Source: Oleiharenicola lentus
GTDB lineage: Bacteria > Verrucomicrobiota > Verrucomicrobiia > Opitutales > Opitutaceae
Assembly: GCF_004118375.1 (NCBI RefSeq)
Contig: NZ_SDHX01000002.1
Span: 124,001-188,000, forward strand
Length of the DNA: 64,000 bases
Direction of reading: 5' to 3'
The stretch's first letter is position 1, and every line of letters starts with the position of its first letter. This document shows, in pieces, positions 14,963 through 62,407 of the stretch. Under the pieces are notes generated by a model. The model saw only the letters and a list, made by a program, of their open reading frames with translations, did no database searches and had not been told where the DNA came from. The position numbers and the translations under genes were made by a program.

Positions 14963-15070
14963 TGCGGCGTTATCCGGCGTGTCAGCGGGACTTATACTCC
15001 CGCCGCGGCCCCGGGCTGAACCAAAGATTGTCTTTGCGCCAGTGCGGGCTTTCGTGACCAATTCCTCCCG

Positions 15071-43944: not shown

Positions 43945-43981
43945 GAGCTAGTTGCTAGTTGGCTAGGAGCTAGGAGCCTAG
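43945..43981. repeat. CTAG heptamer array, left flank of the S23 gene
   Basis: Read on the minus strand: CTAGGCT CCTAGCT CCTAGCC AACTAGC AACTAGC, a 7-base period built on CTAG. It encodes the last residues and the TAG stop of the S23 gene and reaches within one base of the fcl start codon. Confidence 0.85.
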
Positions 43982-44323
43982 ACTGCCGATGAACCGATTC
44001 AGCATTCGGCCGATTTCCTGGTTCTCGCTCTGGAGCGGTTCGACTGCGGACGCTTTGTCAGGGTGGCACTCGGCTAGATAACGAAGCCATTCGCCAGCCT
44101 CATCGTTGGAGGCGAGGGCAATCACCAGGAAGCGGTGGTATTCCGCTGCATACTCGCGGCGCCCGTATCCCTCCACGATGTTCGCCGAGACGGACTTCGA
44201 GGCGCGTCGAAGTTGGCTGCCACTTTCGAATAGTTCGAACTTCGGCAAGTCCATACTAAGCCTGTGGCAGGCGACGCCAAATTCATGCGCGCGTTGATAG
44301 ACCTGAAGGTTCTGGCAGGACAT
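43970..44323 (-). CDS. S23-type four-helix-bundle protein
   Basis: 117 residues of the 23S-rRNA intervening-sequence protein family: LQVYQRAHEFGVACHRLSM, LRRASKSVSANIVEGYGR and AAEYHRFLVIALASNDE are the standard helix signatures. Members form homopentameric helical bundles; the related Avd protein assists diversity-generating retroelements, but most stand-alone copies have no known role. It lies between gmd and fcl, which are normally adjacent, and is bounded on both sides by CTAG heptamer arrays: its ATG directly follows one and its stop lies in the other. This suggests that it arrived as a cassette. Confidence 0.88.
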   Translation of the reverse strand: MSCQNLQVYQRAHEFGVACHRLSMDLPKFELFESGSQLRRASKSVSANIVEGYGRREYAAEYHRFLVIALASNDEAGEWLRYLAECHPDKASAVEPLQSENQEIGRMLNRFIGSLGS

Positions 44324-44366
44324 GATCAGTGGACTAGAATCTAGTGACTAGTTGCTAGCGACTAGA
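44324..44366. repeat. CTAG heptamer array, right flank of the S23 gene
   Basis: On the minus strand: CTAGTCG CTAGCAA CTAGTCA CTAGATT CTAGTCC ACTGATC, then the S23 ATG. The first unit carries the TAG stop of gmd. Exactly 7-base period over six units. Confidence 0.9.
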
Positions 44367-45378
44367 GCTTGGGCAGGTTCGCGATCTGGGCCTCGCGCTT
44401 GGCGAGCTCGAGGTCGGCCTCGGTCATGATCTTCACCAGCTCCTTGAACTTTACCTTCGGCTCCCAGCCCAGCTGGCGCTTGGCCTTGGCGGGATTGCCG
44501 ATCAGCAGCTCCACCTCGGCGGGGCGCTCGTAGCGGGCGTCGTATTTGACGTGTTTCTCCCAGTCGAGGCCGAGCAGGCCGAAAGTCTCGACGATGAACT
44601 CCTTCACCGTGTGCGTCTCGTTGGTGGCGACCACGTAGTCGTCGGGTTTGTCCTGCTGAAGCATCACCCACATCATCTCGACGTATTCCTTGGCGTAGCC
44701 CCAGTCGCGCTTGGCGTCGAGGTTGCCCATGTAGAGCGACTCCTGCAGGCCCAGCTTGATGCGGGTGGCCGCCCGGGTGATCTTGCGGGTCACGAAAGTT
44801 TCACCGCGCCGCGGACTCTCATGGTTGAAGAGGATGCCGGAGGAGGCGTGCAGGTGGTAGCTCTCGCGATAGTTCACCGTGAGCCAATGCGCATACATCT
44901 TGGCGCAGCCGTAGGGCGAGCGCGGCCAGAACGGTGTCTCCTCGGTCTGGGGCACTTGCTGGACCTTGCCGAACATCTCGGAGGAAGAGGCCTGATAGAA
45001 CCGGCATTTCTTGACGAGACCCGCCTCGCGGATCGCCTCGAGGATACGCTGGGCACCGAGGCCCACGACGTCGCCGGTGTACTCCGGGATGTCGAACGAC
45101 ACGCGCACGTGCGACTGGGCCCCGAGGTTGTAGATCTCGTCGGGCTGGAGATCATAGAGCAGCTTCACCATCTGCACCGAGTCGGCGAGATCGCCGTAGT
45201 GGAGGAACAGCTTCACGCCGTTGATGTGCGGGTCGCGGTAAAGGTGGTCGATCCGGCTCGTGTTGAACGTCGAGGCCCGGCGGATGATCCCGTGCACCTC
45301 GTAGCCTTTGGCGAGCAACAGCTCGGCAAGGTAGGATCCATCCTGGCCGGTGATGCCGGTGATCAGGGCTTTTTTCAT
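44362..45378 (-). CDS. gmd: GDP-mannose 4,6-dehydratase
   Basis: 338 residues, extended SDR. NADP-binding [15 protein letters not shown] at the N-terminus, [13 protein letters not shown], catalytic SSSEMFGK (Thr replaced by Ser) and [10 protein letters not shown] (YxxxK). It makes GDP-4-keto-6-deoxy-D-mannose, the shared precursor of GDP-L-fucose and GDP-D-rhamnose. With fcl it completes the GDP-L-fucose branch. Its stop codon lies within a CTAG heptamer. Confidence 0.96.
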
Positions 45379-45423
45379 TAATTCAGTAGCTAGAAGGAAG
45401 CCGGGGCCGCAAGCAAGCGGCGG

Positions 45424-48147
45424 TTAACCCAGCGCGGCCAGCAGACGCTCGTTCTCGGCCTTCTTGGCTTGGAGGTCGGCGAGCTGCTTCTTCGCGCCAT
45501 CCAGCACCGCGGGCGGGGCTTTGCTGACGAAGGCTTCGTTCGACAAGCGCGCCTGCGTGCCGGCGATGTGCTTGGCGAGGGTTTCGATTTCCTTCTGCAG
45601 ACGTGCCTTTTCGGCGGCGGGGTCACCCTTCAGCTGCTTGATGAGATTCCACGAACCGAGCGCGGTGACCGTGACCGGCGCGGCCGGCGACATCGCGCCG
45701 CGCGTGATGGTGGCTGCACCGGCCATGCGTTTGATCTTGGCCAGGTTGGCGTCGAGAATCGCCCAGTGGGCGTCGGAAGCCTCGACGATGAACTCCGAGG
45801 CCTTGTTGGCGGCCTCGCCGTGCTCGGCCTTGAAGGCGCGCACCTGCGAGACCACGGCCTTGAGCGTCTCGACCTGCGAGGCGGCGGTGGAGTCGATCTG
45901 CAAACCGCGACCGGCAAACTGCGACGGGCTCTCCAGCTGCGTGTCGCGCATCAGGAAGGTGCCTTCGGCCCCGTAGCCGAGCTGGTGCCAGAGCTCCTCC
46001 GTGATGAAGGGAATGAACGGATGCAGCAGCAGCAGCGTCTGGCGCAGCACGAGGTCCTGGATGGCGAGGCAGTTGGCCTTCGTCGCCGGGTCCTGGAGCT
46101 TCGCCTTGGAGACCTCCACATACCAGTCGCAGAAATCGTTCCAGAAAAAGCCATAGAGCGCCTGCACGGCCGCGCTGAACTCGAACTGGTTGAAGCAACG
46201 GTCCACCTCGCGCGTGGTCGCGAAAAGGCGGTCGAGGATCGCGTGGTCGTCGGCGTCGAACTTCGCCGGCTCGATCCGGGCCAGGATGGCGCCGGGCGAG
46301 GAATTGTCGGCCATGTCGCCGCTCATCTGGCGGAAACGGCACGCGTTCCAGAGCTTGTTGCAGAAATTCTTGCCGCTTTCGATGCGGTCTTCCTGGAAGC
46401 GGATGTCCTGGCCCTGCGGGGCGATGGACACGATGCCGAAGCGCAGGCCGTCGGCGCCGTACTTGGCAATGAGGTCGAGCGGGTCGGGCGAATTGCCGAG
46501 CGACTTCGACATCTTGCGCCCCTGCGCATCGCGGATGATGCCGGTGAAATACACGTCCTTGAACGGAATCCGCTTCGCCAGCGGCTCGCCCGGGTGCGTG
46601 AACTCCAGGCCGGCCATGATCATGCGCGCGACCCAGAAGAAGATGATGTCCGGACCGGTCACGAGCGTGTTGGTCGGGTAGAAATAGTCGTAGCCGGCCT
46701 TCGCCATCGCGTCCTTGTCCGGCCAGCCGAGCGTGGCAAAGGGCCAGAGCCACGACGAGGCCCAGGTGTCGAGCACGTCGTCTTCCTGCACCCAGTTGTC
46801 CTTGTCGGCCGGTCCTTCGAGGGAGACGTGAACCTTTTTCGGATCGGCGAGATCGGCCTCCGTGAGCTTCTCCTTGTCGAGGCCCTTGGCATACCACACC
46901 GGAATGCGGTGGCCCCACCAGAGCTGGCGGCTGATGCACCAGTCCTGGATGTTCTCGAGCCAGTGCAGGTAAACCTTGGACCAGCGCTCGGGATGGAAAC
47001 GGATGTGGCCGTCGCGCACGGCCGCCTTGGCCTCCTCGACCCGCGGGTATTTGAGCCACCACTGCCAGGTGAGGCGCGGCTCGATCGGCACGTCGGCGCG
47101 CTCGGAGTAGCCGACGTTGTTCTCGTAGAGCTCCTCCTTCACCAGCGCGCCGGATTCCTTGAGCAACTCGGCGGCCTTCTTGCGGCCGGCAAAGCGGTCC
47201 AGGCCCGCGAGCGCGGGGCCGGCCAGCTCGTTGAGCGTGCCGTCGGCGTTGAGCACGTCCACGACCGGCAGCTTGTGCCGCAGGCCGATGTCGAAATCCA
47301 CCTTGTCGTGCGCGGGTGTGATCTTGAGCGCGCCGGAGCCGAACTCCTTGTCCACGGCGCTGTCCGCGACGATCGGGATTTCCGCCGCCGGACCGATGGG
47401 CCGACGCACCTTCTGGCCGATGAGCGTGGTGTAGCGCGGATCATCCGGATGCACGGCAATCGCCACGTCACCGGGAATCGTCTCGGGGCGCGTGGTTTTC
47501 ACCTCGATGAACTGGCCCGGCTGACCGACCAGCTCGTAACGCACCTGATACAGAAAACCCTTGGCGGGCTTCATGATCACTTCCTCGTCGGAGAGCGCGG
47601 TGAGCGAAACCGGGCACCAGTTGACCATGCGCTTGCCGCGGTAGATGTGGCCCTTGCGGTAGAGATCGACGAACACGCCCAGGACGGCCTGCGAGTAAGG
47701 CGCGTCCATCGTGAACTGCGTGCGGTTCCAATCGCACGAGGCGCCGAGCGCCTGCAGCTGCTTCAGGATGATGCCGCCCTTGTCATCGCGCCAGGCCCAA
47801 ACCTTCTCGAGGAATTTTTCGCGACCGAGGTCGCGGCGGTGTTTCTTTTCCTTGCGCAGTTCGCGCTCCACCACCGCCTGCGTGGCGATGCCCGCGTGGT
47901 CGGTACCCGGCAGCCACATGGCCTCGCGGCCTTCGAGGCGCGCGCGGCGGATGAGGATGTCCTGCAGGGTGTTGTTGAGCACATGGCCCATCGTGAGCAC
48001 GCCCGTGACGTTGGGCGGCGGGATCATGATCGTGTAGGGCGCCTTGGCGGGATTGACCCGGCCCGCGAAGCAGCCGGCCTGCAGCCAGTCGGCATACCAC
48101 TTCTTTTCAACGTCCTGCGGTTCGTAGCTCTTGGTGATCGTGGCCAT
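45424..48147 (-). CDS. valS: Valyl-tRNA synthetase
   Basis: 907 residues, class Ia. The HIGH equivalent is in PPPNVTGVLTMGHVLNN near residue 45; KMSKS appears as GRKMSKSLGNSPDP near 535. The editing (CP1) domain lies between (TTRPETIPGDVAIAVHPDD). The C-terminus has the anticodon-binding bundle and a terminal coiled coil (KARLQKEIETLAKHIAGTQ) typical of ValRS. It charges tRNA-Val in the cytoplasm. Housekeeping gene bordering the polysaccharide locus. Confidence 0.97.
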   Translation of the reverse strand: MATITKSYEPQDVEKKWYADWLQAGCFAGRVNPAKAPYTIMIPPPNVTGVLTMGHVLNNTLQDILIRRARLEGREAMWLPGTDHAGIATQAVVERELRKEKKHRRDLGREKFLEKVWAWRDDKGGIILKQLQALGASCDWNRTQFTMDAPYSQAVLGVFVDLYRKGHIYRGKRMVNWCPVSLTALSDEEVIMKPAKGFLYQVRYELVGQPGQFIEVKTTRPETIPGDVAIAVHPDDPRYTTLIGQKVRRPIGPAAEIPIVADSAVDKEFGSGALKITPAHDKVDFDIGLRHKLPVVDVLNADGTLNELAGPALAGLDRFAGRKKAAELLKESGALVKEELYENNVGYSERADVPIEPRLTWQWWLKYPRVEEAKAAVRDGHIRFHPERWSKVYLHWLENIQDWCISRQLWWGHRIPVWYAKGLDKEKLTEADLADPKKVHVSLEGPADKDNWVQEDDVLDTWASSWLWPFATLGWPDKDAMAKAGYDYFYPTNTLVTGPDIIFFWVARMIMAGLEFTHPGEPLAKRIPFKDVYFTGIIRDAQGRKMSKSLGNSPDPLDLIAKYGADGLRFGIVSIAPQGQDIRFQEDRIESGKNFCNKLWNACRFRQMSGDMADNSSPGAILARIEPAKFDADDHAILDRLFATTREVDRCFNQFEFSAAVQALYGFFWNDFCDWYVEVSKAKLQDPATKANCLAIQDLVLRQTLLLLHPFIPFITEELWHQLGYGAEGTFLMRDTQLESPSQFAGRGLQIDSTAASQVETLKAVVSQVRAFKAEHGEAANKASEFIVEASDAHWAILDANLAKIKRMAGAATITRGAMSPAAPVTVTALGSWNLIKQLKGDPAAEKARLQKEIETLAKHIAGTQARLSNEAFVSKAPPAVLDGAKKQLADLQAKKAENERLLAALG

Positions 48148-48235
48148 GGGTCGGGATGAGCCGGCCAGTTAGAAGCCCGCCCCCGCGTCTGACAAGCCGG
48201 ATAGGTCGCCCCAGCTGAGGTGGTGCCGTTCCGGG

Positions 48236-48270
48236 CCAGTTGAAGTGGAGAGTTTAAGTTGAAGAAAAGC
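48236..48270 (+). repeat. Direct repeat flanking the export lipoprotein gene, left copy
   Basis: Near-identical to 49512-49547: AGTTGAAG, four variable bases, then AGTTTAAGTTGAAGAAAAGC. The two copies bracket 1.27 kb that holds the Wza-like gene. Confidence 0.75.
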
Positions 48271-48307
48271 CAGGCCGCCTTTTTCACACCCAGAGGAGAG
48301 AAAGATG

Positions 48308-48484
48308 CGCCCTGTCGGGCCGACTGTGTCGGGGCTAACCCGTATATTTCAGACCCAGAGGAGAGAAATATTCGCCCTGACGAGCCGACTGTGTCGGGGC
48401 TAACCGCGACGAAGTCGCTTTTGCCGAAGGCAAAACGGATATTTCTGATTCAACACCTTTCATTGCGCTGAAATATCCGGGCTA
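48308..48484. repeat. Palindromic repeat element, copy B (one and a half units)
   Basis: A partial unit (48308-48370: GCGCCCTGTCGGGCCGAC ... CGTATATTTCAGACCCAG ... GAGAGAAATATTCGC) runs into a full unit (48371-48484) nearly identical to the element at 42898-43011 and ending GAAATATCCGGGCTAG. The terminal CTAG is also the first unit of the heptamer array that follows. Confidence 0.85.
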
Positions 48485-48594
48485 GTCCCTAGTCCGTCCT
48501 CCGGTTTCCGGTTTCAGGTTTCAGGTTTCAGGTTTCAAGTTTCAGGTTTCCGGCCTCCGATCTCCGGCCTCCAGCCTCCGGTCTCCCTTTTCTT
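48482..48594. repeat. Heptanucleotide tandem array H3
   Basis: Strict 7-base period: CTAGTCC CTAGTCC GTCCTCC GGTTTCC, four GGTTTCA, AGTTTCA, GGTTTCC, GGCCTCC GATCTCC GGCCTCC AGCCTCC GGTCTCC. The plus strand is pyrimidine-rich and the last three bases are usually TCC or TCA. Confidence 0.92.
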
Positions 48595-48788
48595 TTGCCT
48601 ACGTTTTGGACGAATGTTCAAGAACGTCGGACAAACACATGTCCGGCAAGCATGCCGGAACAGTGCTCCCTCCTCCTTTCTCCCGCGCGGAGCCTGCACG
48701 CACCCGCGCGCCGCCGGCGAAGCCGGCCTTTACATGCCCCGCCGAACCGGTTTACTTGGCGTTTCTCCCTGCGATCGTCTCATTTACC

Positions 48789-49472
48789 ATGAAAAGCCCC
48801 GCTCCTCTTTCCCCCTGCCTGTCGCTTACCTTCCTTCGGTCCTTGGCCGCATTACCGGCCTTGCTGGCGTTGGGCGCTACCTGGTTGCTTACCGGCTGCA
48901 CCACGACCACCTCTGAAGTCGCCTCGGCCGAACAGGCGGCTCAAGCCCAGATGTCCGCTGATCAGCAATCGGCGGACGCCCTGGCCCTCAAGGAGGGTGA
49001 CGTGATCAAAGTCAGTTTCCCCGGCGTGCCTTCGATGGATGCCACGCTGCCGGTGCGGGCCGACGGCCGGGTCGCGCTGCCACTGGTGGGAGACCATGCC
49101 GTGGCCGGCAAAAGCATCGAGGCCCTTACCAAGGAGCTCCTGGCTCTGTATGAACCGCAGTTGGTTTCCAAGGAGGTCCAGGTCTCGCTGGTTTCCTCCA
49201 GCTTTACGCTCTATGTCACGGGCGCCGTGCTGCGTCCCGGCAAGATTGTGGCCGAACGGCGCATTTCCGCCTTCGATGCCATCATGGAAGCTGGCGGTTT
49301 CGACAAGGCCCGGGCCAACCTCAAGGCGGTCGTCGTCGTGCGCCAGGAGGAGGGTCAGACCAAGAGCTATACCCTCAATTTGGACCAGGTTTTCACCGGC
49401 GGCCAAAGCGTCCCATTCTATCTCAAGCCCTTCGATACGGTTTACGTCCCGACCAAGTTCAACTGGTTCTGA
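48789..49472 (+). CDS. Polysaccharide export lipoprotein, Wza/BexD type
   Basis: 227 residues. Lipoprotein signal (LLALGATWLLTGC, lipidated Cys near residue 37), then the Poly_export domain (ALKEGDVIKVSFPGVPSMDATLPVRADG) and one SLBB-like domain (FTLYVTGAVLRPGKIVAERR). It is short, like PEP-CTERM-associated export proteins, and would form the outer-membrane exit for the polymer. The ATG at 48789 is fixed by the signal sequence; the open frame upstream to 48606 is repeat-derived. It is separated from the rest of the locus by a 1.37-kb spacer. Confidence 0.9.
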   Translation: MKSPAPLSPCLSLTFLRSLAALPALLALGATWLLTGCTTTTSEVASAEQAAQAQMSADQQSADALALKEGDVIKVSFPGVPSMDATLPVRADGRVALPLVGDHAVAGKSIEALTKELLALYEPQLVSKEVQVSLVSSSFTLYVTGAVLRPGKIVAERRISAFDAIMEAGGFDKARANLKAVVVVRQEEGQTKSYTLNLDQVFTGGQSVPFYLKPFDTVYVPTKFNWF

Positions 49473-49511
49473 CCCGGGCGGCTTTGCCTTTGCCCCGGAT
49501 TCCACCCGGCG

Positions 49512-49547
49512 GGTAGTTGAAGCCGGAAGTTTAAGTTGAAGAAAAGC
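49512..49547 (+). repeat. Direct repeat flanking the export lipoprotein gene, right copy
   Basis: TAGTTGAAGCCGGAAGTTTA followed by AGTTGAAGAAAAGC; pairs with the copy at 48236-48270. Confidence 0.75.
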
Positions 49548-49884
49548 GTTGGAAGTTGGCTTTCGATTTCTGGTATCTGACGTCTGACGTCCGATCTGAG
49601 CAGCCCGGAATCCTTGGTCTTTGTCTCCGTGTTGCCTTCTCCCTGTCTCGCCTTTCCGTCGTCGGTCGGACCGTCTACTGACTTTAGTATTACTTGGTCC
49701 TTGGTCCCTAGACCGAGGGCGGTGTAAAGATTTCTGCGGTCGCGTGCGGATAGGCAGAGCTGGATTCTTCGCTTCGCTCAGAACGACACGCTTAGGGAGC
49801 GCATTTTCATCACGGGCATCCTCAGCGCAGCGAAGCCGCAGTTTTCACCGGTCGAAAACGGCTACAGTTCAACTAAAAATGCCA

Positions 49885-50038
49885 AAGTCCCGCCTCCAGT
49901 CTCCGTCCTCAGGTTTCAGGTTTCCGGCCTCCGATCTCCGGCCTCCAGTCTCCGTCCTCCGGCGCGTCCCGCGCCTCCTTCCCTCCTCCCGGCGCACCGC
50001 GCCCCTTCACCCTACTCCCTGTTCCCGGCTCTCAGGCA
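49885..50038. repeat. Heptanucleotide tandem array H4
   Basis: From 49894: AGTCTCC (imperfect lead-in), GTCCTCA GGTTTCA GGTTTCC GGCCTCC GATCTCC GGCCTCC AGTCTCC GTCCTCC, then GGCGCGTCCCGCGCC and looser units. The order GGTTTCC-GGCCTCC-GATCTCC-GGCCTCC is the same as in array H3. Confidence 0.88.
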
Positions 50039-50210
50039 GCGCCTCCCACCCTTTGGGCTGCGACTTGGGGGCGAGGGACTCGACCGCCATCGGGTAAGCG
50101 CTGAATCCAGACTCTCCTTCGATGCCTTCCGGCGCATGGCGCAAAGCCCGGTGCAGAACAATCCCCCCACCTCCGAGGGTAAGAGCAATCGATGCGCAGA
50201 GTAAGATCAC
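50007..50210 (-). CDS. Possible small membrane protein
   Basis: 67 residues: a hydrophobic N-terminus (MILLCASIALTLGGGGIVLH) then RALRHAPEGIEGESGFSAY. The HAPEG...GF stretch looks more like protein than chance, and the start faces the AT-rich spacer. However, the last 15 or so codons run into heptamer-type sequence and no homologue can be checked. Weak call. Confidence 0.3.
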   Translation of the reverse strand: MILLCASIALTLGGGGIVLHRALRHAPEGIEGESGFSAYPMAVESLAPKSQPKGWEALPESREQGVG

Positions 50211-50846
50211 CCCCTCACAATCGGCGCGGCACGGACGATTTTTAGGATAAAAATTTCACTGAGAGTGCAGGCAACTTTACACAAATGCGTTTTAGATCGG
50301 AGTCACCTCAGGATAACAAATGACTCATACTTGCATTAACAGCTCCCTATTCGTCGCATTTTGCCATAAGAATACTTTCTGAGTGAATGCCCTACAAAGC
50401 ACCTGACATACGGCCATTTAGACTAGGAGAAACAAAGAGGAATCGAGCCTGCCTTATTGCATATTTGTTTCATTATAAATAATCTAGGCACGATTGCTCA
50501 GAATATTTCGCATGTGTTAGCGCACCCCTAGTGATTTGTGTTAAATAGGTTACGAACCATAAATGTGAATTAATTTAACTTGCACGACTTTCGTGTTTGA
50601 TGCCTAAAAATCCTGTGAAGCTTATCCACCCTGCTGCGTATATCTCGGAATCCACGCTACCCTGACCCTCGGGAAATTTCATCCAAGTAGCATTATCGGT
50701 GTGATATCCGCGCTAGAAAGTTATAAAATACCCGCTCCCTCATCGGTAAGCTTCCACAACCACACACCCCTCAAGGATTCGAAGTATTTTGGGCCCACTC
50801 TCAAATTTAATGCAGTATTTCTGCCCCACGCTTAACCGATTCAATC

Positions 50847-51596
50847 ATGGAATACTACTGCTCCACTAATCACCTTAGAGCCCATGATCGACATGTGCCG
50901 CTACCCTTGTGGAAGCGTAGTTTGGATATCCTTTGCTGCTTATTCGCTTTGCCGGTGCTTTTGCTTTGCACGCTCATGATGTCAGTAATCACCCGGATCG
51001 TTTCTCCCGGACCTATCCTATTTCGGCAAAAACGCATTGGTCTGAATGGCCAGACCTTCAAGATCTACAAATTCCGAAGCATGCGGGTGAATGCCGAAAC
51101 GACCAACCATCAGAATCATTTTAAGGAATTGGTCAGCACAAGTGCTCCCATGGTCAAACTTGATGCTAAAGGCGACTCTCGCCTGCTGCCGGGCGCGTGG
51201 CTTTTACGCGCTTCGGGCTTGGACGAATTGCCGCAGATCATCAATGTGCTAAAAGGGGAAATGAGTTTGGTCGGTCCACGTCCGTGCCTGCCCTCTGAAG
51301 CCGATCTATATCAACCATGGCAGAGGCAGCGATTCAATGCTTTGCCCGGCCTTACGGGCCTCTGGCAGGTTTCGGGAAAAAACCGGACAACCTTTGATGA
51401 AATGATCCGCCTGGACATCCGCTACTCCCAAAATATGTCGCTGTGGCTCGACCTCAAAATTATTGTCCTGACCATTCCAGCTTTGCTGATTCAGCTTTAT
51501 GACACACGGGTTGGCCGTCGGTCGGCAGCGGTCAGCCTCCATACTGCAGCTCCATTTTCGATGTCACAAAATCGAGCTTCCGCGAACATCCCTTGA
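50847..51596 (+). CDS. Undecaprenyl-phosphate sugar-1-phosphate transferase
   Basis: 249 residues, a monotopic phosphoglycosyl transferase of the short (catalytic-domain only) kind. One N-terminal membrane segment (LDILCCLFALPVLLLCTLMM) is followed by the catalytic core: SPGPILFRQKRIGLNG, YKFRSMRVNAE, LRASGLDELPQIINVLKGEMSLVGPRP (catalytic Asp-Glu in LDELPQ) and PGLTGLWQVSGKN. It starts polymer synthesis by loading the first sugar phosphate on the lipid carrier. The last 35 or so residues are unlike the family and may be an added tail. Confidence 0.93.
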   Translation: MEYYCSTNHLRAHDRHVPLPLWKRSLDILCCLFALPVLLLCTLMMSVITRIVSPGPILFRQKRIGLNGQTFKIYKFRSMRVNAETTNHQNHFKELVSTSAPMVKLDAKGDSRLLPGAWLLRASGLDELPQIINVLKGEMSLVGPRPCLPSEADLYQPWQRQRFNALPGLTGLWQVSGKNRTTFDEMIRLDIRYSQNMSLWLDLKIIVLTIPALLIQLYDTRVGRRSAAVSLHTAAPFSMSQNRASANIP

Positions 51597-51752
51597 ATCT
51601 GGATGTTGCATTTTGGTGAGTCTCAAGTTGGGAATGGCTGCCGTTGGGTGAAGTTCAGTCAGTCTGCCATGCAAGCAGGCTGAGCCGAACCTGAATGCGC
51701 CCGAACCCCTTGTTAATATTCTGTTTCCGCTGATATCTAAATCACCTAAACC

Positions 51753-52898: not shown

Positions 52899-52924
52899 AA
52901 ATCGCCAGGTCCACCTGCTTTCCC

Positions 52925-53410: not shown

Positions 53411-53440
53411 GCGCACCACACCCGTGTGACCCGAGTTGAA

Positions 53441-53812
53441 AATTTCTGGTCCCTGTTCGCTAGACGCTCCACCTTTTTCCCACCGTCCTCCAGCCTCCCA
53501 TCTCCTTACTCCCACCGTTTACCGTCCATTGTAGCCCCGCCTCCGGTCTCCCTTCTCTGCCCTGCCTCCTCCCTTCTCCTTTCTCCTTTCTCCTGTCTCC
53601 TGTCTCCTGCGCGCCACGCTCGCCCTCCTCAGGTTTCCGTTCTCCACCCCTCCGTCCTCCGCCCTTGTTACTTGATACTTGTTTCTTGTCACTTACCTCC
53701 CGTCCTCCGTTCTCCCTAGTTCCTAGTCGCTAGTCACTAATCGCTAGACCCTAGAACCTAGTCCCTAGTCCCTGGTCCCGAGTCCTTCCTCCCTTCTCCT
53801 TTCTCCTCATCC
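53441..53812. repeat. Heptanucleotide tandem array H5
   Basis: Fills the whole 405-base gap before the aminotransferase gene. Clear runs: CTTCTCC TTTCTCC TTTCTCC TGTCTCC TGTCTCC; GTTACTT GATACTT GTTTCTT GTCACTT; and CTAGTTC CTAGTCG CTAGTCA CTAATCG CTAGACC CTAGAAC CTAGTCC CTAGTCC CTGGTCC CGAGTCC TTCCTCC CTTCTCC TTTCTCC. The units change one or two bases at a time while the 7-base phase is kept. Confidence 0.93.
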
Positions 53813-53815
53813 GCA

Positions 53816-54949: not shown

Positions 54950-54964
54950 TCGCGGCCAGCCTGC

Positions 54965-56056
54965 TTGTGCAATGTGATACCGGTCTCGAGCACCTCTCCT
55001 GCTCCGGGCACGCCCGGTATCAACCAGCTGGATCCCCGGAAGCATGCCGCGTGGGACGATAACGTGCGCACCTTGGAAGGTGCGACATTCTTCCACTCGG
55101 CGGCCTGGGCCCGAGTGCTGCAGGAGGCCTACGGCTACCAGCCGCACTACCTCACTAAGAGCGATGCGACGGGAAAATTGACCGCCCTCCTGCCCCTGAT
55201 GGAGGTATCCAGCTGGCTGACGGGAAAACGCGGCGTTGGCCTCCCTTTCACCGACCTAGTGGAGCCACTTTGCTCCGATCCCGCAAACTTCCGCGAGCTG
55301 ATCGACGCAGCCCTGGCCTTGGGCCGCGCGCGCGGATGGAAATACCTCGAGTGCCGGGGCGGAAAATCTTGGCAGCCCGAAGCTCCGGCCTCGACCAGTT
55401 TCCTGCGCCATACACTGACCTTGAACGTCGGCGAAGCCACCCTGCTGGCTGGGTTTGACGATTCTGTGCGTCGCGCCATGCGCAAGGCCGAGCGCAGCGG
55501 CGTGAAAGTGGAGTTCTCCCGCTCCCCTGAGGCGATGAATGCCTTTTATGGGCTCATGTGCCAGACCCGCCGCCGTCATGGCGTGCCGCCCCAGCCCTAT
55601 CGCTTTTTCACGAACATCCAGCGTTATATCTTGGCTGAGCGGGAGCAGGGCTGGATCGTGCTCGGCCGGGATGCGAGCGGACTGCCCGTAGCCGGCGCGA
55701 TCTTCCTGCATTTCAACCGGCGGGCCATCTACAAATTCGGCGCCTCCGATGAGAACCGACAGGAGCTGCGAGCCAACAATCTGGTTTTCTGGCGGAGCAT
55801 CCAGCATTATGCCAACGCAGGCTTTCTCGAAATGGATTTCGGCCGCACCTCCCTCGGCAACGAAGGACTGCGAAAATTCAAACTTGGTTGGGGCACGCGG
55901 GAAGAGTCGGTCGAATACACCCGGTTTGATTTTCGGACATCTGGCCATGTTACGGCCAAGGATGAAGCCCAGGGCTGGCATAACCAAATTTTCCGAAACC
56001 TGCCCCTGCCTCTGTCGCGCCTGGCCGGCCGCTTCCTTTACCGCCACATTGCCTAG
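54965..56056 (+). CDS. FemAB/GNAT-like protein of exosortase-type polysaccharide loci
   Basis: 363 residues. A double GNAT fold of the FemAB family: FFHSAAWARVLQEAYGYQPHYL, RAMRKAERSGVKVEF, FYGLMCQTRRRHGVPPQPY, YKFGASDENRQELRANNLVFW, and FDFGRTS are all in place and match the FemAB-related proteins of XrtA/PEP-CTERM loci. Likely transfers an amino acid or acyl group during polymer synthesis. The start is uncertain: TTG at 54965 or GTG at 54974; no ATG precedes the conserved region. It lies 15 bases after the aminotransferase gene. Confidence 0.85.
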   Translation: MCNVIPVSSTSPAPGTPGINQLDPRKHAAWDDNVRTLEGATFFHSAAWARVLQEAYGYQPHYLTKSDATGKLTALLPLMEVSSWLTGKRGVGLPFTDLVEPLCSDPANFRELIDAALALGRARGWKYLECRGGKSWQPEAPASTSFLRHTLTLNVGEATLLAGFDDSVRRAMRKAERSGVKVEFSRSPEAMNAFYGLMCQTRRRHGVPPQPYRFFTNIQRYILAEREQGWIVLGRDASGLPVAGAIFLHFNRRAIYKFGASDENRQELRANNLVFWRSIQHYANAGFLEMDFGRTSLGNEGLRKFKLGWGTREESVEYTRFDFRTSGHVTAKDEAQGWHNQIFRNLPLPLSRLAGRFLYRHIA

Positions 56057-56634
56057 GCGCGGCAAGCCGCGCCGTAGGCGGGAGGAGGAATCACGGAGAA
56101 AGGAGCATGGAAGACGGAATCCTTTGTCCCTTGTCTCTGGTCCTTGGTCCTTTGTTCCGCCCTCCGTCCACTGTCCACCGTCCGACCCGTTGTCCGTAGT
56201 CAGTGGTCAGTAGTCCGATCTCCGAACTCCGATCTCCTGTCTCCGTCCTCCCTCCTCCCTTCTCCTTTCTCCTGCGCACCACGCGCGCCCGCCTCCGGTT
56301 TCCGATTTCAGGTTTCAGCTTTCAAGTTTCAGTCCTCCGCCCTTGTTACTTGATACTTGTTCCTTGTTACTTCGCTTCACACTTCTGCCTTAGTCCATGG
56401 TCCCTCGTCCCCGGTCCTTTGTTCCGCCCTCCGCCCTACCCTCCTCCGGTCTCCGGTCTCCCTAGTCCGTAGTGACTAGTCACTTGATGCTAGTCGCTAG
56501 TCCCTGGTCCTTGGTCCTTCCTCCCTGCTCCCTTCTCCCGGCGCGCCCCGCCGCGCCTCCGATTCCCATGGACGACCCCTCGTTTGGCCCCTTAACTTTC
56601 CCCATCTCTTTCCCGCGACATCCGGATTCCACGA
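56057..56634. other. Repeat-filled spacer before the Wzc-like gene
   Basis: 578 bases without a gene, nearly all heptamer-type sequence (see array H6); begins with the hairpin GGCGCGGC-AA-GCCGCGCC (56056-56073) just after the FemAB stop codon. Confidence 0.85.
56105..56560. repeat. Heptanucleotide tandem array H6
   Basis: The longest array. Runs include CCTTTGT CCCTTGT CTCTGGT CCTTGGT CCTTTGT; AGTCAGT GGTCAGT AGTCCGA TCTCCGA ACTCCGA TCTCCTG; and CTAGTCG CTAGTCC CTGGTCC TTGGTCC TTCCTCC. Positions 56332-56361 are identical over 30 bases to 53654-53683 in array H5. Confidence 0.93.
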
Positions 56635-58866
56635 ATGGCCACTCCCACCACCAATCCCACCGCCACATTCAAGATCAGCGACCTCTACTACGTCCTGTTC
56701 CGTCACAAGTGGAAGATCATCATCTGCACCATGCTCGGCTTGGGAGCAGCCGCCGCGGTTTATAAGCTCAAACCGCCCCCCTACCAATCACGCGCCAATC
56801 TCTTGATCCGCTTCGTTATCAGCGAGGGGCGCTCGATGGATCCCGGGGCCAACGACACGATCACCATGTCCCCGGATGGCCGCGGCGCCACGGTCCTGAA
56901 TTCCGAGCTCCAGATCTTTACCAGCCGGGATCTGGCCGAGACCGTCGCCCGCAATGTCGGTCCGGATAAAGTGCTAACTGGCATCAGTGATTCCAAATCT
57001 CTCGCTGAAGCCACAAGCGTTGTTCGCGCTGGATTATTTGCGGAGACTCCTCGCAACAGCAGCACGATTGAGGCCTACGTCACTCACCCCAATGCCGAAA
57101 TGGCGCAGGCCATCATGCGGGAGTACGTCAACGCTTACCTCAAACGTCACCAGGAAATCCACCGCGCCGCCGGCATGGTCGGCGAATTTCTGGCCCAGGA
57201 GACCGACCAGTTGCGGGCCCGGCTTACGCAGACTGAGGAACAGCTCCGGGCGGTGAATGCCAAGGCCGGGGTCGTTTCCCTGGAGGCCTCGAAGCAGGCC
57301 TATGCCGACCAGATGAACCGCATTCGCGACGCCATTTTCACCGCCCAGGCGGAACTCGCTGGCCGGATCTCCGTGTATGAGCAGATGACAAAACTCCTCC
57401 AGCCCGCCGCCGCGGAGGCCACCGCGACCGAGCCGGCCCCTGTGCCGCCCGCACAGATTGAGGCCTATCAGCGCGTCCTGGCCCAGATCAGCCAGTTGCG
57501 GGGCCGGGAGGCCGAGCTGTTGAACTATTTTAAGGAGGGCTCCGCGCGCATTCAGGAAGTGCGGGCCCAGGTGGCCGAGGCCGAGGCTTCACGCCAGCAG
57601 CTGATTGCCGCCCACCCCGGGCTCGCGCGCGTGAACACCGCCGTGGTGGTGGCGGCGGGCAACCGCCCCGGCGGCTACGATCCCGTGACGGAAGGCGCCC
57701 AGATCACCGCTCTGCAAGCGAGACTCAAAGCCCTCAACGCGCAGATGGAGCAGGTTCGAGCCGAGGCGGCCAACCTCGACCAACTGGAAGTATCCATCCT
57801 CGAACTGCGTCGCCGCAAGGAACTCGAGGAAACCAATTACCGCCGCTATGCCGCGAGCCTGGAGCAACAGCGCATCAAGGAAGCCATGGGCGACGGCAAG
57901 GTTTCGAATATCAGCATCGTGCAGTCCGCCACCCCGGCGGCGCAAGACTGGATGCCACTGCGCAAGCTCACCGCCGGCATCGCCGCCGCTGGTTTGATTC
58001 TGGGTCTGGCTTGGGCCTTCCTCATCGAGATGTTCCTCGATCACTCCATCCGGCGCCCGGGCGAGGTGGAACGCACCCTGCGCGCCCCCCTCTTCATCGC
58101 CATTCCCCGGCTCAAGACCGCCCTTGCCGCAGGTAAAAGCCGGCGAAAACTGTTGCCGGCTGCGGGCAGCAAGCCGGTGGGCGACGCCGACCAAAACGCC
58201 GCCGGGTCGGGGAATGGGATGTCTTTGGCCACAACCGAGCTGGAACCCTTCCATCAAACCCTGCGCGACCGCTTGATCAGCTACTTCGAGAGCATCAACC
58301 TCCGGCACAAACCCAAGCTGATCGCCGTGACTGGACTGGGGCGCAGCTCGGGCGTCACCACCACCGCCTCCGGCTTGGCCCGTTCCTTGTCCGAGACCGG
58401 CGAGGGCAACGTCCTCCTCGTGGACATGACCCAGGGCCAGGGCTCCGCCCAGCACTTCCAGCGCGGCACCCAGATCGGCTTGGACCAGCTGCTCGACACC
58501 CGCAACTCGGCATTTGTCCGCGACAACCTCTACGTCGTCAGCGAAAGTTCCGGCGGCGAGCGTCTCGCCAAGGGCCTCCCCCAGCGTTTCAACCAGCTCG
58601 TGCCGAAGCTCAAGGCCAGCGACTTCGACTACATCATTTTCGACATGCCGCCGGTGAACCAGATCAGTATCACCCCCCGCCTCGCCCAGTTCATGGATAT
58701 GACCCTCCTCGTGGTAGAATCCGAAAAAACCGACCGCCATGTCGCGGAACGCGCCGCGGAGCTTCTGACCCAAGCCAAGACCAATGTCGGCGTCGTGCTC
58801 AACAAAAACAATCCCTACGTTCCCGCCCGACTGCAACAGGACAGCAATTTTTTCCTGGGCGCATGA
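56635..58866 (+). CDS. Wzc-like chain-length/tyrosine-kinase-type protein with degenerate ATP site
   Basis: 743 residues. Wzz domain with two membrane helices (about 26-45 and 443-465) around a periplasmic coiled-coil region, then a cytoplasmic BY-kinase-like domain from about 555. The Walker A position reads TGLGRSSGVTTT: the catalytic Lys of GxGKT is Val. Walker A' reads LLVDMTQGQ (normally D-A-D), while Walker B FDYIIFDMPP keeps its Asp. The C-terminal Tyr cluster of true BY-kinases is absent. It therefore probably works as a structural co-polymerase without kinase activity. It controls polymer length or export together with the Wza-like lipoprotein. Confidence 0.87.
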   Translation: MATPTTNPTATFKISDLYYVLFRHKWKIIICTMLGLGAAAAVYKLKPPPYQSRANLLIRFVISEGRSMDPGANDTITMSPDGRGATVLNSELQIFTSRDLAETVARNVGPDKVLTGISDSKSLAEATSVVRAGLFAETPRNSSTIEAYVTHPNAEMAQAIMREYVNAYLKRHQEIHRAAGMVGEFLAQETDQLRARLTQTEEQLRAVNAKAGVVSLEASKQAYADQMNRIRDAIFTAQAELAGRISVYEQMTKLLQPAAAEATATEPAPVPPAQIEAYQRVLAQISQLRGREAELLNYFKEGSARIQEVRAQVAEAEASRQQLIAAHPGLARVNTAVVVAAGNRPGGYDPVTEGAQITALQARLKALNAQMEQVRAEAANLDQLEVSILELRRRKELEETNYRRYAASLEQQRIKEAMGDGKVSNISIVQSATPAAQDWMPLRKLTAGIAAAGLILGLAWAFLIEMFLDHSIRRPGEVERTLRAPLFIAIPRLKTALAAGKSRRKLLPAAGSKPVGDADQNAAGSGNGMSLATTELEPFHQTLRDRLISYFESINLRHKPKLIAVTGLGRSSGVTTTASGLARSLSETGEGNVLLVDMTQGQGSAQHFQRGTQIGLDQLLDTRNSAFVRDNLYVVSESSGGERLAKGLPQRFNQLVPKLKASDFDYIIFDMPPVNQISITPRLAQFMDMTLLVVESEKTDRHVAERAAELLTQAKTNVGVVLNKNNPYVPARLQQDSNFFLGA

Positions 58867-59106
58867 TGCGAGCTCCACGCGGCGGCTCATTCGCGGCATC
58901 TCCACGCATACAGGGAGCCGCCGGTAGCGATGTTCTCGCTGGCGCTGGAACCATGGGCGGGATCATCCTACTGGCCATTCCCCAACACCAGACTGGTATG
59001 ATCCTAGGCCGCCTCGTTCACCCGCCGAGAAAACGCTTCACCGCCGCTGCCCGCAGCTGACAAACATCGCCAACGGAAACCTCTCACCCAGTCCGAATTC
59101 TGACCG

Positions 59107-61260
59107 ATGCTGCATCGCCGACTCTACTACCTCCTGAAGCCTTTTCTTCCCTGGAGCCTGCGCATGGGCTTTCGCCGGATTCTCGCGCGGCGCCTGCGCC
59201 GCATCCATTCCGCGGTCTGGCCGATCCAGGCCAACGCCGCCACCAAACCGACCGGCTGGCCCGGCTGGCCCGAAAACAGTCAGTTTGCCTTCGTGATCAC
59301 CCACGATGTGGAAGGCCCCGAAGGGCTCGCGAAATGCCGGCAGCTCGCGGAGCTTGAGATGGAGATGGGTGTTCGCTCCTGTTTCAACTTCATCCCGGAG
59401 GGGCCGTATGCCGTGCCGCCGGAATTGCGCGCCTGGCTGGTTGGGAACGGCTTCGAAGTCGGGGTCCATGACCTCCGGCACGACGGTCACCTGTATGATT
59501 CGCGCCGCGGGTTCGAGGAGCAGGCCGTCCGGATCAACCATCACCTGCAGGACTGGGGGGCCTCGGGGTTTCGCGCCGGGTTCATGCTGCGAAACCTCGA
59601 GTGGTTGCACGACCTCAAGATCGAATACGACTCCTCCACCTTCGACACGGATCCCTTCGAACCCCAGTCTTCGGGCGCCGGCACCATTTTCCCGTTTTGG
59701 GTCTCAGCTCCGCCGCCGCGCACCGTGTCCGCCAACGGGAGATACCTCACGCCGCCACCAAATACCTCGGGCTACATCGAGCTGCCCTACACCCTCCCGC
59801 AGGACTCGACCCTGTTCCTGCTGCTTCGTGAAACCTCGCCCGAGATCTGGTTGCGCAAGCTGGACTGGGTTGCCGGCCACGGGGGCATGGCACTCGTCAA
59901 TGTCCATCCCGACTATGTCCGTTTCGACGGTGAGGCCGCGAGCCCGCGCACCTTTCCGGTGTCCTATTACCGCGAACTGCTCGCGCATGTCCGCCGCCAG
60001 CACACCGGCAGATACTGGCAGGCCCTGCCCGGCCAGGTGTCGCGCTTCGCCCGCGGCCTGAGCCCGCTCCCCGCCCTGCCGCGCCCGCGCAGGATCTGCA
60101 TGATCAGCCATTCGTTCTACGAAAGCGACAACCGCGTGACCCGCTATGCGGAGGCCCTCGCGGCTCGCGGCGACCATGTTGACATTCTCGCCCTCCGCCG
60201 GTCCGCCGATCTGCCCCGCCAGGAAACGATTCAAAATGTGTGCGTGCATCGCCTGCAGGACCGCTTTGGCAAAAACGAGCAGTCGAAGCTGTCCTACCTG
60301 TGGCCGCTGCTGCGCTTCCTCCTCGCCTCCTTCTGGTGGCTGACGCGCAGCCACGCCCGCCGGCGCTACGACCTGATCCACGTCCACAACATCCCCGACT
60401 TCCTGATCTTCGCGGCCTTGTATCCGAAGATGACCGGCACGCCCGTCATCCTCGACATCCACGACATCGTGCCGGAATTTTTCACCAGCAAGTTCGGCCA
60501 GCGCGCGTCCGGGGTTTCCTTCACCTTGCTCAAGCTGATGGAGCGCTGCTCCGCCGCCCTGGCAAACCATGTGATCATCGCCAATCATCTTTGGCTCGAC
60601 ACCTACACCGGGCGCACCGGCACCCGGGATCGCAGCACCGCGTTCATCAACTACGTTGATTCCCAGGTTTTCGTTCCCGCTCCCGCCCCGCGCGACGACG
60701 GGAAAAAAGTGGTGATTTTCCCGGGCGGACTGCAATGGCACCAGGGCCTGGACATTGCCATCCGTGCGTTTCCGGCGGTGCGCGCGGCCGTGCCCGGGGC
60801 GGAATTCCACATCTACGGCGACGGCAACGCCAAGGAATCCCTCGTCGCCCTGACCCGCGATCTCGGCCTCGACGGTTGCGTCCGCTTTTTCGAACCGACC
60901 AATGTCCGCAAGGTCGCCGCCATCATGGCCCGGGCGGACCTCGGCGTCGTGCCGAAGCGCGCCGACTCCTTTGGCAACGAGGCCTACAGCACCAAGATCA
61001 TGGAATTCATGTCGGTCGGCGTTCCCGCCGTGGTGTCCAGCACCAAGATTGACCGGTATTACTTCGACGACACGGTGGTGCGCTTCTTCCCCTCCGGCAA
61101 TGTCGAGGCCCTCGTCGCGGCCCTGATCAGCCTGTTGAGCGATGCGGAGCTGCACCGGCGGCAGGCGGCCGCCGGACTGGAGTATGCCCGGCTGAACTGT
61201 TGGGAAACCCGCAAGCATGACTATCTCGGCCTGGTTGATCGCCTGAGTCCCTTCTGCTGA
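59107..61260 (+). CDS. Polysaccharide deacetylase fused to a GT4 glycosyltransferase
   Basis: 717 residues in two parts. Residues about 60-310 are a NodB-like deacetylase: FVITHDVEGPEG (catalytic and metal Asp) and GVHDLRHDGHLYD (metal His). Residues about 330-717 are a GT-B glycosyltransferase family 4: MISHSFYESDNRVTRYAEAL, YDLIHVHNIPDFLIF, and VVPKRADSFGNEAYSTKIMEFMSVGVPAV (nucleotide-sugar Glu). A 240-base gap precedes it. The fusion suggests that one enzyme adds a sugar and removes an acetyl group in the same pathway. Confidence 0.9.
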   Translation: MLHRRLYYLLKPFLPWSLRMGFRRILARRLRRIHSAVWPIQANAATKPTGWPGWPENSQFAFVITHDVEGPEGLAKCRQLAELEMEMGVRSCFNFIPEGPYAVPPELRAWLVGNGFEVGVHDLRHDGHLYDSRRGFEEQAVRINHHLQDWGASGFRAGFMLRNLEWLHDLKIEYDSSTFDTDPFEPQSSGAGTIFPFWVSAPPPRTVSANGRYLTPPPNTSGYIELPYTLPQDSTLFLLLRETSPEIWLRKLDWVAGHGGMALVNVHPDYVRFDGEAASPRTFPVSYYRELLAHVRRQHTGRYWQALPGQVSRFARGLSPLPALPRPRRICMISHSFYESDNRVTRYAEALAARGDHVDILALRRSADLPRQETIQNVCVHRLQDRFGKNEQSKLSYLWPLLRFLLASFWWLTRSHARRRYDLIHVHNIPDFLIFAALYPKMTGTPVILDIHDIVPEFFTSKFGQRASGVSFTLLKLMERCSAALANHVIIANHLWLDTYTGRTGTRDRSTAFINYVDSQVFVPAPAPRDDGKKVVIFPGGLQWHQGLDIAIRAFPAVRAAVPGAEFHIYGDGNAKESLVALTRDLGLDGCVRFFEPTNVRKVAAIMARADLGVVPKRADSFGNEAYSTKIMEFMSVGVPAVVSSTKIDRYYFDDTVVRFFPSGNVEALVAALISLLSDAELHRRQAAAGLEYARLNCWETRKHDYLGLVDRLSPFC

Positions 61261-61396
61261 AAGACGGCCCCGGCCCATGCGAAACAGCAATCCAGTCCGC
61301 CATGCCCGACCGCTCCTCCCTGCTCCGGCGCCGGCGCCCGTTGCCGAATCGGACCTCCGGCTTCCGAAACCCCGCCTCCCCCGGTTCTGATTTCCC

Positions 61397-62407
61397 GTGC
61401 GCCTCGACCGCCTGATCTCCCTCGGCCTCGTCGATCCGGTTCTCCGGCTGAAGGGCGCACCCGCCCCAGCAACCGCAGGCCGCGCCGCGGTCAGCCGCCT
61501 GCCCGTCCTCATGTATCACCGGATTGCCGATGATCCTGAGCCGGGCATCTCGCCTTATTACCGCGTGTGCGCTTCGCCGCGGCGCTTTGCCGAGCAGATG
61601 CAATGGCTGGCCGACTTGGGCTATCGGGGCGTGACGCTCAGCGAGGGGTTGCAAGCACTGAAGACACAGGGCGAAGGGGACAAGGTGCAGGGTATGAAAG
61701 AGGAAGTAAGATTCGCGAACGGTGCCGGCACCCAGTCTCCGGCCTCCGGTCTCCAGCCTCCAGCCTCAGGCGCCCCTTCTCCTTTCTCCGCTGCCCTTTC
61801 TCCCCCAACTTCTCAAAAGTTGGTCGCCATTACCTTCGACGACGGTTTCCGCGATTTTCACACGGCCGCCTATCCCGTCCTCGCGCGCCACGGGTTCACG
61901 GCGACCATGTATCTGCCCACGGCCTATGTCGGTGAGACCCGGCTGAGTTTCAAGTCCCACGAGTGCCTGACCTGGCCCGAGGTGCGGGAACTGCGGCGGG
62001 CCGGCATCGAATTCGGGTCGCACACGGTCAGCCACCCGATTCTCGTTCGCCTGGGCTGGCCCGAGATCGGACGCGAACTGCACGACTCCCGGCAAATGAT
62101 CGAACAGCATCTCGGCGCCAGCGTCACCAGCTTTGCCTACCCCTACGCGTTTCCCTCGGCCGACCGGGACTTCACCGCCCGCCTGCGCGAAATGATCGGA
62201 GAGGCCGGTTACGCCACCTGCGCCACCACCGAAATCGGCACGGTGACCGCGGGCGACGATCCGCTGCAGCTGCGCCGGCTGCCGGCCAACGGCTGCGACG
62301 ACTTCCCGCTGCTCCGGGCCAAGGTCTCCGGCGCCTACGACTGGCTTCATTCTGTCCAGAGCGTCTTCAAGCGGCTCAAACCCCGTCCGGCGCGCCCCGC
62401 CGCCTAA
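61397..62407 (+). CDS. Polysaccharide deacetylase carrying a repeat-derived insert
   Basis: 336 residues from a GTG at 61397. NodB-type domain: PVLMYHRIADDPEPGISPYYRV at the start, VAITFDDGFRDF (catalytic Asp-Asp) near 144-155, GSHTVSHPIL (metal His pair) near 213-222, and FAYPYAF. Between the first helix region and the TFDDG strand lies an extra stretch of about 48 residues (91-139). This stretch is Pro/Ser/Ala-rich with a 7-residue periodicity, and is encoded by heptanucleotide repeats (61734-61803) preceded by a purine-rich stretch. In relatives this linker is about 10-15 residues. The insert lies in a surface loop, so activity may survive. Confidence 0.88.
   Translation: MRLDRLISLGLVDPVLRLKGAPAPATAGRAAVSRLPVLMYHRIADDPEPGISPYYRVCASPRRFAEQMQWLADLGYRGVTLSEGLQALKTQGEGDKVQGMKEEVRFANGAGTQSPASGLQPPASGAPSPFSAALSPPTSQKLVAITFDDGFRDFHTAAYPVLARHGFTATMYLPTAYVGETRLSFKSHECLTWPEVRELRRAGIEFGSHTVSHPILVRLGWPEIGRELHDSRQMIEQHLGASVTSFAYPYAFPSADRDFTARLREMIGEAGYATCATTEIGTVTAGDDPLQLRRLPANGCDDFPLLRAKVSGAYDWLHSVQSVFKRLKPRPARPAA
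61727..61803. repeat. Heptanucleotide array H7 inside a coding sequence
   Basis: AGTCTCC GGCCTCC GGTCTCC AGCCTCC AGCCTCA GGCGCCC CTTCTCC TTTCTCC GCTGCCC TTTCTCC (61734-61803), in phase for ten units. Three heptamers make 21 bases, i.e. seven codons, giving the peptide rhythm SPASGLQ / PPASGAP / SPFSAAL. Confidence 0.93.

Follow-up and report, generated by a model that had tools for sequence, protein, structure and literature searches.

The heptamer arrays of the polysaccharide locus

The window, by which we mean the whole stretch of DNA analysed here (64,000 nucleotides, G000:C2:124001-188000), belongs to a source genome (G000) of two contigs and 4.71 Mb. Its polysaccharide locus encodes an epimerase, a dehydratase, an export protein, a sugar transferase, an oxidoreductase, a hexapeptide transferase, an aminotransferase, a FemAB/GNAT-like protein, Wzz, glycosyltransferases and a deacetylase; a valyl-tRNA synthetase-like gene also sits within it. 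Between the epimerase gene and the GDP-mannose dehydratase gene, and not in a 23S rRNA helix, lies the gene for a 117-aa S23/23S_rRNA_IVP four-helix-bundle protein (43970-44323, minus strand; locus L032), with matches to PF05635 (E = 3.6e-26), the '23S rRNA intervening sequence protein' family, TIGR02436 (9.7e-26) and PDB structure 2gsc (1.8e-5). This gene is framed by two short arrays, neither of which is assigned a strand. The left arm (43948-43981; sequence reading and TRF) has five CTAG cores at 43948, 43955, 43963, 43970 and 43978 (pitch 7 or 8) and reaches into the S23 gene at its 3' end, so that the stop codon of this gene falls within the fourth core. The right arm (44334-44368; sequence reading) has five CTAG cores at 44334, 44341, 44348, 44355 and 44362, at an exact 7-bp pitch, and its last core contains the stop codon of the neighbouring dehydratase frame. 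Both arms fall below the lag-7 threshold of at least 19/28, and the inverted score of the locus was 8.8 against a cut-off of at least 11; by eye, CTAG pentads flank both sides. The arrays at the left end thus belong to an S23 gene that the original prediction had missed.

A lag-7 scan (28-base windows, regions called at no fewer than 19 matches) returned 14 strong regions in 43945-61803 and none in 1-43944, and dinucleotide shuffles of 43945-61803 (n = 200) gave a mean of 0.045 regions and a maximum of one. This bears out the original prediction on two counts, namely that degenerate heptamers hold a seven-base phase through the spacers and that the region before 43 kb lacks them. At a looser cut-off of at least 17 matches, one weak region appeared in the first part (14931-14965). 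Lags of 4, 5, 8, 10, 11 and 13 gave no regions in either part of the window, and lags of 6, 9, 12 and 15, which follow the coding period, gave 0 to 8.

The arrays to the right of the S23 element are all placed on the plus strand. This included a mosaic array of the CTAGTCC, GGTTTCA and TCCGGCC families, without an S23 gene, at 48479-48597 (lag-7 scan, TRF and sequence reading), as well as a short TCTGACG array at 49560-49595, TCAGGTT and TCCGGCC arrays at 49888-50026 and a long mosaic array at 53494-53809 (lag-7 part 53553-53809), the last three found by the lag-7 scan. Purine-rich heptamers (GGARNNN) at 56078-56120, seen by eye and below the lag-7 threshold, are a possible left arm of the array that follows, which is the longest mosaic of all and is built of TTTC, CTT and CTAG blocks (56115-56551; lag-7 scan and sequence reading). 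By eye, the CTT pentad at 53664-53695 belongs to the family seen both in the L038 S23 arms and in the S23-less hairpins of G000, and the CTT block at 56344 is likewise of the type of L038 and the CTTG hairpins. In these long mosaic arrays, several arm families seem to be stacked on one another. Similarity between units in 56085-56545 fell from 0.64 through 0.50, 0.44, 0.39 and 0.31 to 0.29 at distances of one to six units (background 0.27); the units therefore drift stepwise, which suggests later 7-bp slippage.

A separate structured repeat of ~190 bp (48275-48482), with an internal 65-bp duplication (48282-48405), abuts the first mosaic array, and a second copy was seen by eye near another S23 gene of the source genome (about L036:1311-1465). 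About 20 bases (GTTTAAGTTGAAGAAAAGC) are common to 48252 and 49529 (by eye). No known Rfam family matched 43000-64000 at the gathering threshold.

One array lies in a gene, as had been predicted. An apparent heptamer insert (61668-61800, plus strand; by eye and lag-7 scan) interrupts the deacetylase frame (61397-62407), which stays open and carries a polysaccharide-deacetylase domain; purine heptamers (AGGGNNN) at 61668-61695, seen by eye, are followed by CTCC heptamers at 61725-61776. The sole congeneric homologue found (genome G012) is ~44 codons shorter at the ~61668-61800 stretch (by eye), and the ten plasmid homologues listed, of 113 records, lack 45 to 57 codons across the part that aligns, which does not place the gap.

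The arrays had been tied to the polysaccharide locus, and this part of the original prediction did not hold: when 160 kb of the 4.71-Mb genome were sampled systematically, 10 lag-7 regions were found (6.2 per 100 kb). By the merging rule of that sample, 43945-61803 holds 9 regions in 17.9 kb, so the predicted higher density stands but confinement to the locus does not, and repeats specific to polysaccharide genes are contradicted by the genome-wide occurrence. Two more dense zones carry polysaccharide or export genes (C1:1780-1830 kb and C2:198-214 kb) and one does not (C2:1136-1146 kb), in a map that is biased because zones were picked by similarity to the window's array. In the last of these (G000:C2:1136000-1146000; L180 and L192), mosaic heptamer arrays lie beside alcohol-dehydrogenase and HipA-like genes, with no polysaccharide gene in the two frames scanned. 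That the arrays are recombination substrates for shuffling polysaccharide genes is unlikely: their density here and in the two zones with such genes would suit it, as would the one exact 30-bp match that links the spacer at 53654 (53654-53683) to that at 56332, but arrays occur genome-wide, and relatives have them in what we take to be the livK-livH spacer.

Inverted heptamer arms at S23 loci of many phyla

Short repeat arrays are visible by eye beside the S23 genes of G000. The genome has nine matches to the S23 family, seven of which have inverted arms by score; the two loci below the cut-off of at least 11 are L036 and the window's own L032. We surveyed the source genome, its genus and its phylum, where 65 of 66 loci were usable (L094 was dropped for length). 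A flank lag-7 score of at least 18/28 was found in 91/130 S23 flanks compared to 1/129 stretches lying 600 bp farther out. At the same 65 loci, lag 14 passed in 52 flanks and lag 8 in 12, each with 0 in the control, and the remaining lags were near their controls. The inverted score was at least 11 in 57/65 loci, compared to 8/65 in direct orientation and 28/300 when the arms of mismatched loci were paired.

Named loci of many bacterial phyla behaved alike. The best 80 of 581 were taken, of which 77 were usable (L113, L121 and L169 were dropped, the flank being too short). Flank lag-7 scores of at least 18/28 were found in 96/154 flanks compared to 9/148 controls, lag 8 in 24/154 compared to none, and inverted scores of at least 11 in 70/77 loci, compared to 11/77 in direct orientation and 29/300 mismatched pairs. 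Among additional loci of the genus, scored with wider flanks and no control of their own, 37/40 passed; one of the three misses, L333, is an artefact of a region cut too short. The 21 genus genomes held 112 S23 matches, 78 of which were examined. A control family from the same genomes, Y1_Tnp, had a lag-7 region at 0/30 loci (30 taken of 85 matches), compared to 24/29 for S23. S23 genes of many phyla thus sit between two short reverse-complement arrays of 7-bp, sometimes 8-bp, units. The arrays are therefore not special to one phylum. They had been proposed as landing sites; a link to mobility survives from that idea, but at S23 genes they basically come as two short, mutually inverted runs and not as a direct array.

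S23/four-helix-bundle genes were found in 78/115 sampled genomes of this phylum and in 0/14 well-known control genomes. The co-occurrence of genes and arrays was uneven. Genome G107, from a member of the family, lacks any PF05635 match, yet has 6 array regions in 160 kb (3.8 per 100 kb); its heptamer array loci include L205, L206, L210 and L211. In 100 kb sampled from G102 and 60 kb from G100, both S23-bearing, 0 and 1 lag-7 regions were seen, respectively. Arrays with an inverted partner numbered 6/10 in the sample of G000, 6/19 in G118, 0/11 in G001, 0/9 in G110 and 0/6 in G107. S23-less hairpins and single arms are numerous, and solo arrays are common in some genome samples.

Pairing between the arms

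An arrangement of this kind is familiar from the intervening sequence (IVS) of Coxiella 23S rRNA, which is reported to have a 28-bp terminal inverted-repeat stem, heptamers before the S23 ORF and a cut by RNase III (PMC4990558). An explanation at the level of RNA follows from it: the arms pair in the transcript, RNase III excises the S23 segment and pairing preserves the heptamers. The complementarity of the arms within each locus agrees with this. Selection on an RNA stem would be expected to leave an excess of G.U pairs, but the arm-to-arm mismatches on the S23 sense strand (128 loci, 4139 aligned positions) comprised 140 GT, 208 AC and 332 others; there was no G.U excess in the 128 loci, and RNA-stem selection is weakened as a candidate. 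AC mismatches thus outnumber GT between S23 arms. The order of units between arms is also only weakly kept (82% in register compared to 77% with units shuffled; p < 0.05 at 12/64 loci, by a test that is biased upward through block choice), and S23-less hairpins and single arms occur in number. We consider the RNA-level explanation possible but doubtful.

Arm length and number of cores

The arms are of narrow length. Medians were 31.5 and 31 nt and quartiles 30 and 38 for the 82 upstream and 66 downstream passing arms (142 loci), and the commonest arm, ~32 nt long, consists of five ~4-nt cores spaced at 7 nt. Among 284 S23 arms overall, 136 were scorable at pitch 7; five cores were counted in 66 of these, four in 28, six in 22, seven or more in 19 and three in one, a distribution in which the share of five is inflated because the count adds cores and favours longer arrays. 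Because it maximises over phase, roughly one synthetic array in five was overcounted by one core, and short arrays are found less often (205/400 with four cores compared to 293/400 with five). In an alternative count, with phase set by conservation, four and five cores occurred in 30 and 27 of 81 upstream arms and in 24 and 21 of 64 downstream arms, respectively. The peak at five was sharper within individual families, with five cores in 16/26 GTAG arms (20 sites, G001) and 16/22 CTTG arms (G000); pentads were less clear at pitch 8 (five cores in 8/28). Three loci (L096, L100 and L102) have long regular arms of about 16 to 24 units, compared to the usual four to six.

The S23 structures 2gsc and 2rld have 5 chains each, and the Xanthomonas S23 protein is described as a homopentameric toroid (PMC4990558). 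The five cores may correspond to the five S23 subunits.

Arm sequence follows the S23 lineage

We compared arms between loci of different phyla, using pairs without a common 14-mer in the outer flanks, with the ORF masked and a match defined as a periodic arm match score of at least 11. Phyla were assigned from record titles, and the phylum of this genome was pooled with Planctomycetes and Kiritimatiellae. Arms matched in 22/399 pairs below 45% protein identity (a 12% sample of such pairs), 123/1394 at 45-50%, 159/988 at 50-55%, 59/340 at 55-60%, 31/67 at 60-65% and 12/21 above 65%. Permutation of locus labels, taking pairs from 45% up, gave p = 0.0003. Arms matching across phyla included those of Thiohalocapsa and Ruminococcus (AGTGGTT) and of Desulfobacteraceae and Nitrospirae. 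Within the genus, the S23 genes of L048 and L049 are 85% identical and have like arms without a common outer 14-mer. Arm sequence therefore tracks the S23 protein lineage between phyla without shared flanks.

Degenerate tandem heptamers in spacers are known from cyanobacteria as STRRs, and the present arrays might be of that type or products of ordinary simple-sequence slippage, with no relation to S23. The stepwise drift of the tandem heptamers and the common solo arrays of some genome samples fit such an origin. It leaves unexplained why the arrays are linked to S23, why they are inverted, why arm length varies so little and why arms co-travel with the S23 lineage, and as a full account it is contradicted by the S23 association; we regard it as very unlikely. 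Slippage may well account for the length of the window's mosaic arrays. The likeness to STRRs is that both are degenerate tandem heptamers in spacers; to our knowledge neither an inverted arrangement nor an S23 link is part of how STRRs have been described.

S23-less hairpins and alleles at orthologous sites

By eye, G000 contains many small hairpins with CTTG arms, whose short loops are unlike each other. A second kind was followed with the pattern GTAGYGR across 21 genomes, giving 119 hits in G015, 63 in G001, 46 in G008, 34 in G016 and fewer in nine others; these hits overlap and take in arms of S23 loci, and are not element counts. Eight of the 21 genomes, G000 among them, had no hits, and a reversed-pattern control gave 0 in all 21. 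In G001, the 63 hits fell into 27 sites. Both arms were found in 7 sites by the exact pattern and in 11 of the other 20 by a fuzzy scan, which gives 42 runs in the 160-kb sample of that genome, so that an occasional chance partner is expected. The order in the two-armed sites of the fuzzy scan was a GTAG arm and then its complement in every case.

GTAG hairpins match the S23 loci L048 and L049, with one pattern hit at L316 too. No S23 gene with GTAG arms was found in G015 or G001, all of whose S23 matches (8 and 2) were examined. The genomes richest in GTAG hits therefore give no support to dependence on S23; in G015 and G001, either a helper was lost, another S23 protein acts on the hairpins, or S23 is a passenger.

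Hairpins scattered between genes are reminiscent of REPs, and mobilisation by Y1 (RAYT-type) transposases might be proposed for them, given Y1 matches in 16/21 genomes. At none of 30 Y1 loci (of 85 matches) did a heptamer array lie closer than ~1.5 kb, and Y1 counts do not track GTAG hits (G017 has 9 matches and 0 hits; G001 has 2 matches and 63 hits). Y1/RAYT mobilisation is weakened by both results, and we hold it to be highly improbable.

The site of the window's S23 element could be compared among relatives. In 18 alleles of the epimerase-dehydratase site read by eye, the genes abut in 7, an S23 element is present in 2 (G000 and G016), an S23-less GTAG-type hairpin in 2 (G015 and G001), another kind of hairpin in 3 and other inserts in 2, and 2 are not syntenic. 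Hairpins of a different kind, with units near 9 bp (such as ACACGGAAG), were seen by eye at this insertion site in L292, L296 and L295 (G017, G010 and G013, respectively). A second spacer, presumably flanked by livK and livH, had no match in G000. Its 12 alleles comprised 5 with S23 (the G010 copy with an internal stop), 1 with the left array only, 1 with the right array only, 4 without and 1 with the genes abutting. The same spacer thus occurs without an insert, with an S23-less heptamer hairpin, or with an armed S23 gene. Comparison of empty and filled alleles of both spacers by eye gave no clear target-site duplication.

These alleles bear on an alternative in which S23 would act as a regulator, with the heptamer arrays as operators of a regulon rather than the ends of an element. 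Five cores at even spacing, together with a pentameric protein, resemble a protein-binding site, and the hairpins observed are mostly intergenic (by eye). Against such a role, one spacer is empty, hairpin-bearing or S23-bearing among congeneric genomes, an inverted arm lies downstream of the gene too, and pattern hits range from 0 to 119 within one genus. We judge it quite unlikely.

Discussion

The arrays are probably the terminal inverted repeats, in iterated form, of small mobile elements with a single S23 gene, and of S23-less hairpins of like make. This fits because the gene has cognate inverted ends and unevenly distributed gene-less relatives, because presence and absence both occur at orthologous sites, and because arm-gene units are common to different phyla. 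Under this mobile-element reading, the S23 pentamer would bind an arm, each subunit taking one core, and draw the two inverted arms together, and the paired ends could then allow copying or insertion of the segment, with S23-less copies mobilised in trans. The window's long mosaic arrays would consist of arms from several lineages that had accumulated, nested or recombined and later drifted through 7-bp slippage, which was presumably tolerated in spacers and once within a coding gene. Our most economical guess is an S23 ring that recognises the pentads and brings both ends together; we know of no nuclease or transposase activity of S23.

Each of the known systems that come to mind is matched in part. 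In REP/BIME and RAYT systems, a gene is flanked by short inverted repeats and many gene-less intergenic hairpins are alike. A flanked gene and dispersed gene-less hairpins are features in common, but the gene here is S23 and not a Y1 transposase, as the array-free Y1 loci underline, and the arms are iterated heptamers. MITEs are short gene-less inverted-repeat elements akin to longer gene-bearing ones, with uneven copy number. The S23-less GTAG hairpins similarly have gene-bearing relatives (L048 and L049), though none in G015 and G001; unlike for MITEs, no transposase-bearing relative was found, target-site duplications were not clear by eye, and the loops are dissimilar by eye.

A copying process in the form of reverse transcription, which the original prediction would have allowed, is not favoured. 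The S23 protein of L070 matches Avd of diversity-generating retroelements (NF033474, 6.4e-9, below the cut-off of that model). In contrast to Avd systems, G000 has no reverse-transcriptase (PF00078) match, and the window's S23 protein has no NF033474 match at 0.001. As PF00078 is present in only 4/21 genomes of the genus, reverse-transcriptase copying is weakened as a candidate.

The closest precedent remains the Coxiella 23S rRNA IVS. In the IVS of Coxiella burnetii, the S23-family ORF likewise lies in a loop between inverted repeats, with a 28-bp stem and ORF-adjacent heptamers whose copy number varies between strains (PMC4990558). In contrast, the window's element lies between protein genes and not in an rRNA helix, its heptamers form both arms, arm sequence is lineage-dependent, and S23-less hairpins and long mosaic arrays exist. 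Our searches of open PMC (titles and abstract starts, several searches being broad) found nothing beyond the Coxiella paper on heptamer arms at S23 genes generally or on S23 elements outside rRNA. Heptamers beside an S23 ORF are thus already recorded for the Coxiella IVS (PMC4990558), and the extension made here is their much wider range.

According to the Coxiella paper, S23/four-helix-bundle proteins have no known function (PMC4990558). That cognate heptamer arms in inverted orientation regularly stand on both sides of their genes provides a concrete candidate ligand for such a protein, ties rRNA intervening sequences to a broader class of elements and explains one class of the heptamer repeats that occur in spacers of bacteria. 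The arrays resemble the termini of a small mobile element, widespread among bacteria but little noticed, whose only gene encodes a ring-forming protein. More tentatively, S23 elements could be phylum-spanning minimal mobile elements without a recognisable nuclease, their pentad ends being read by the S23 ring, which would mobilise its own segment as well as S23-less hairpins. If this is true, the S23 protein of rRNA intervening sequences would be their mobility factor.
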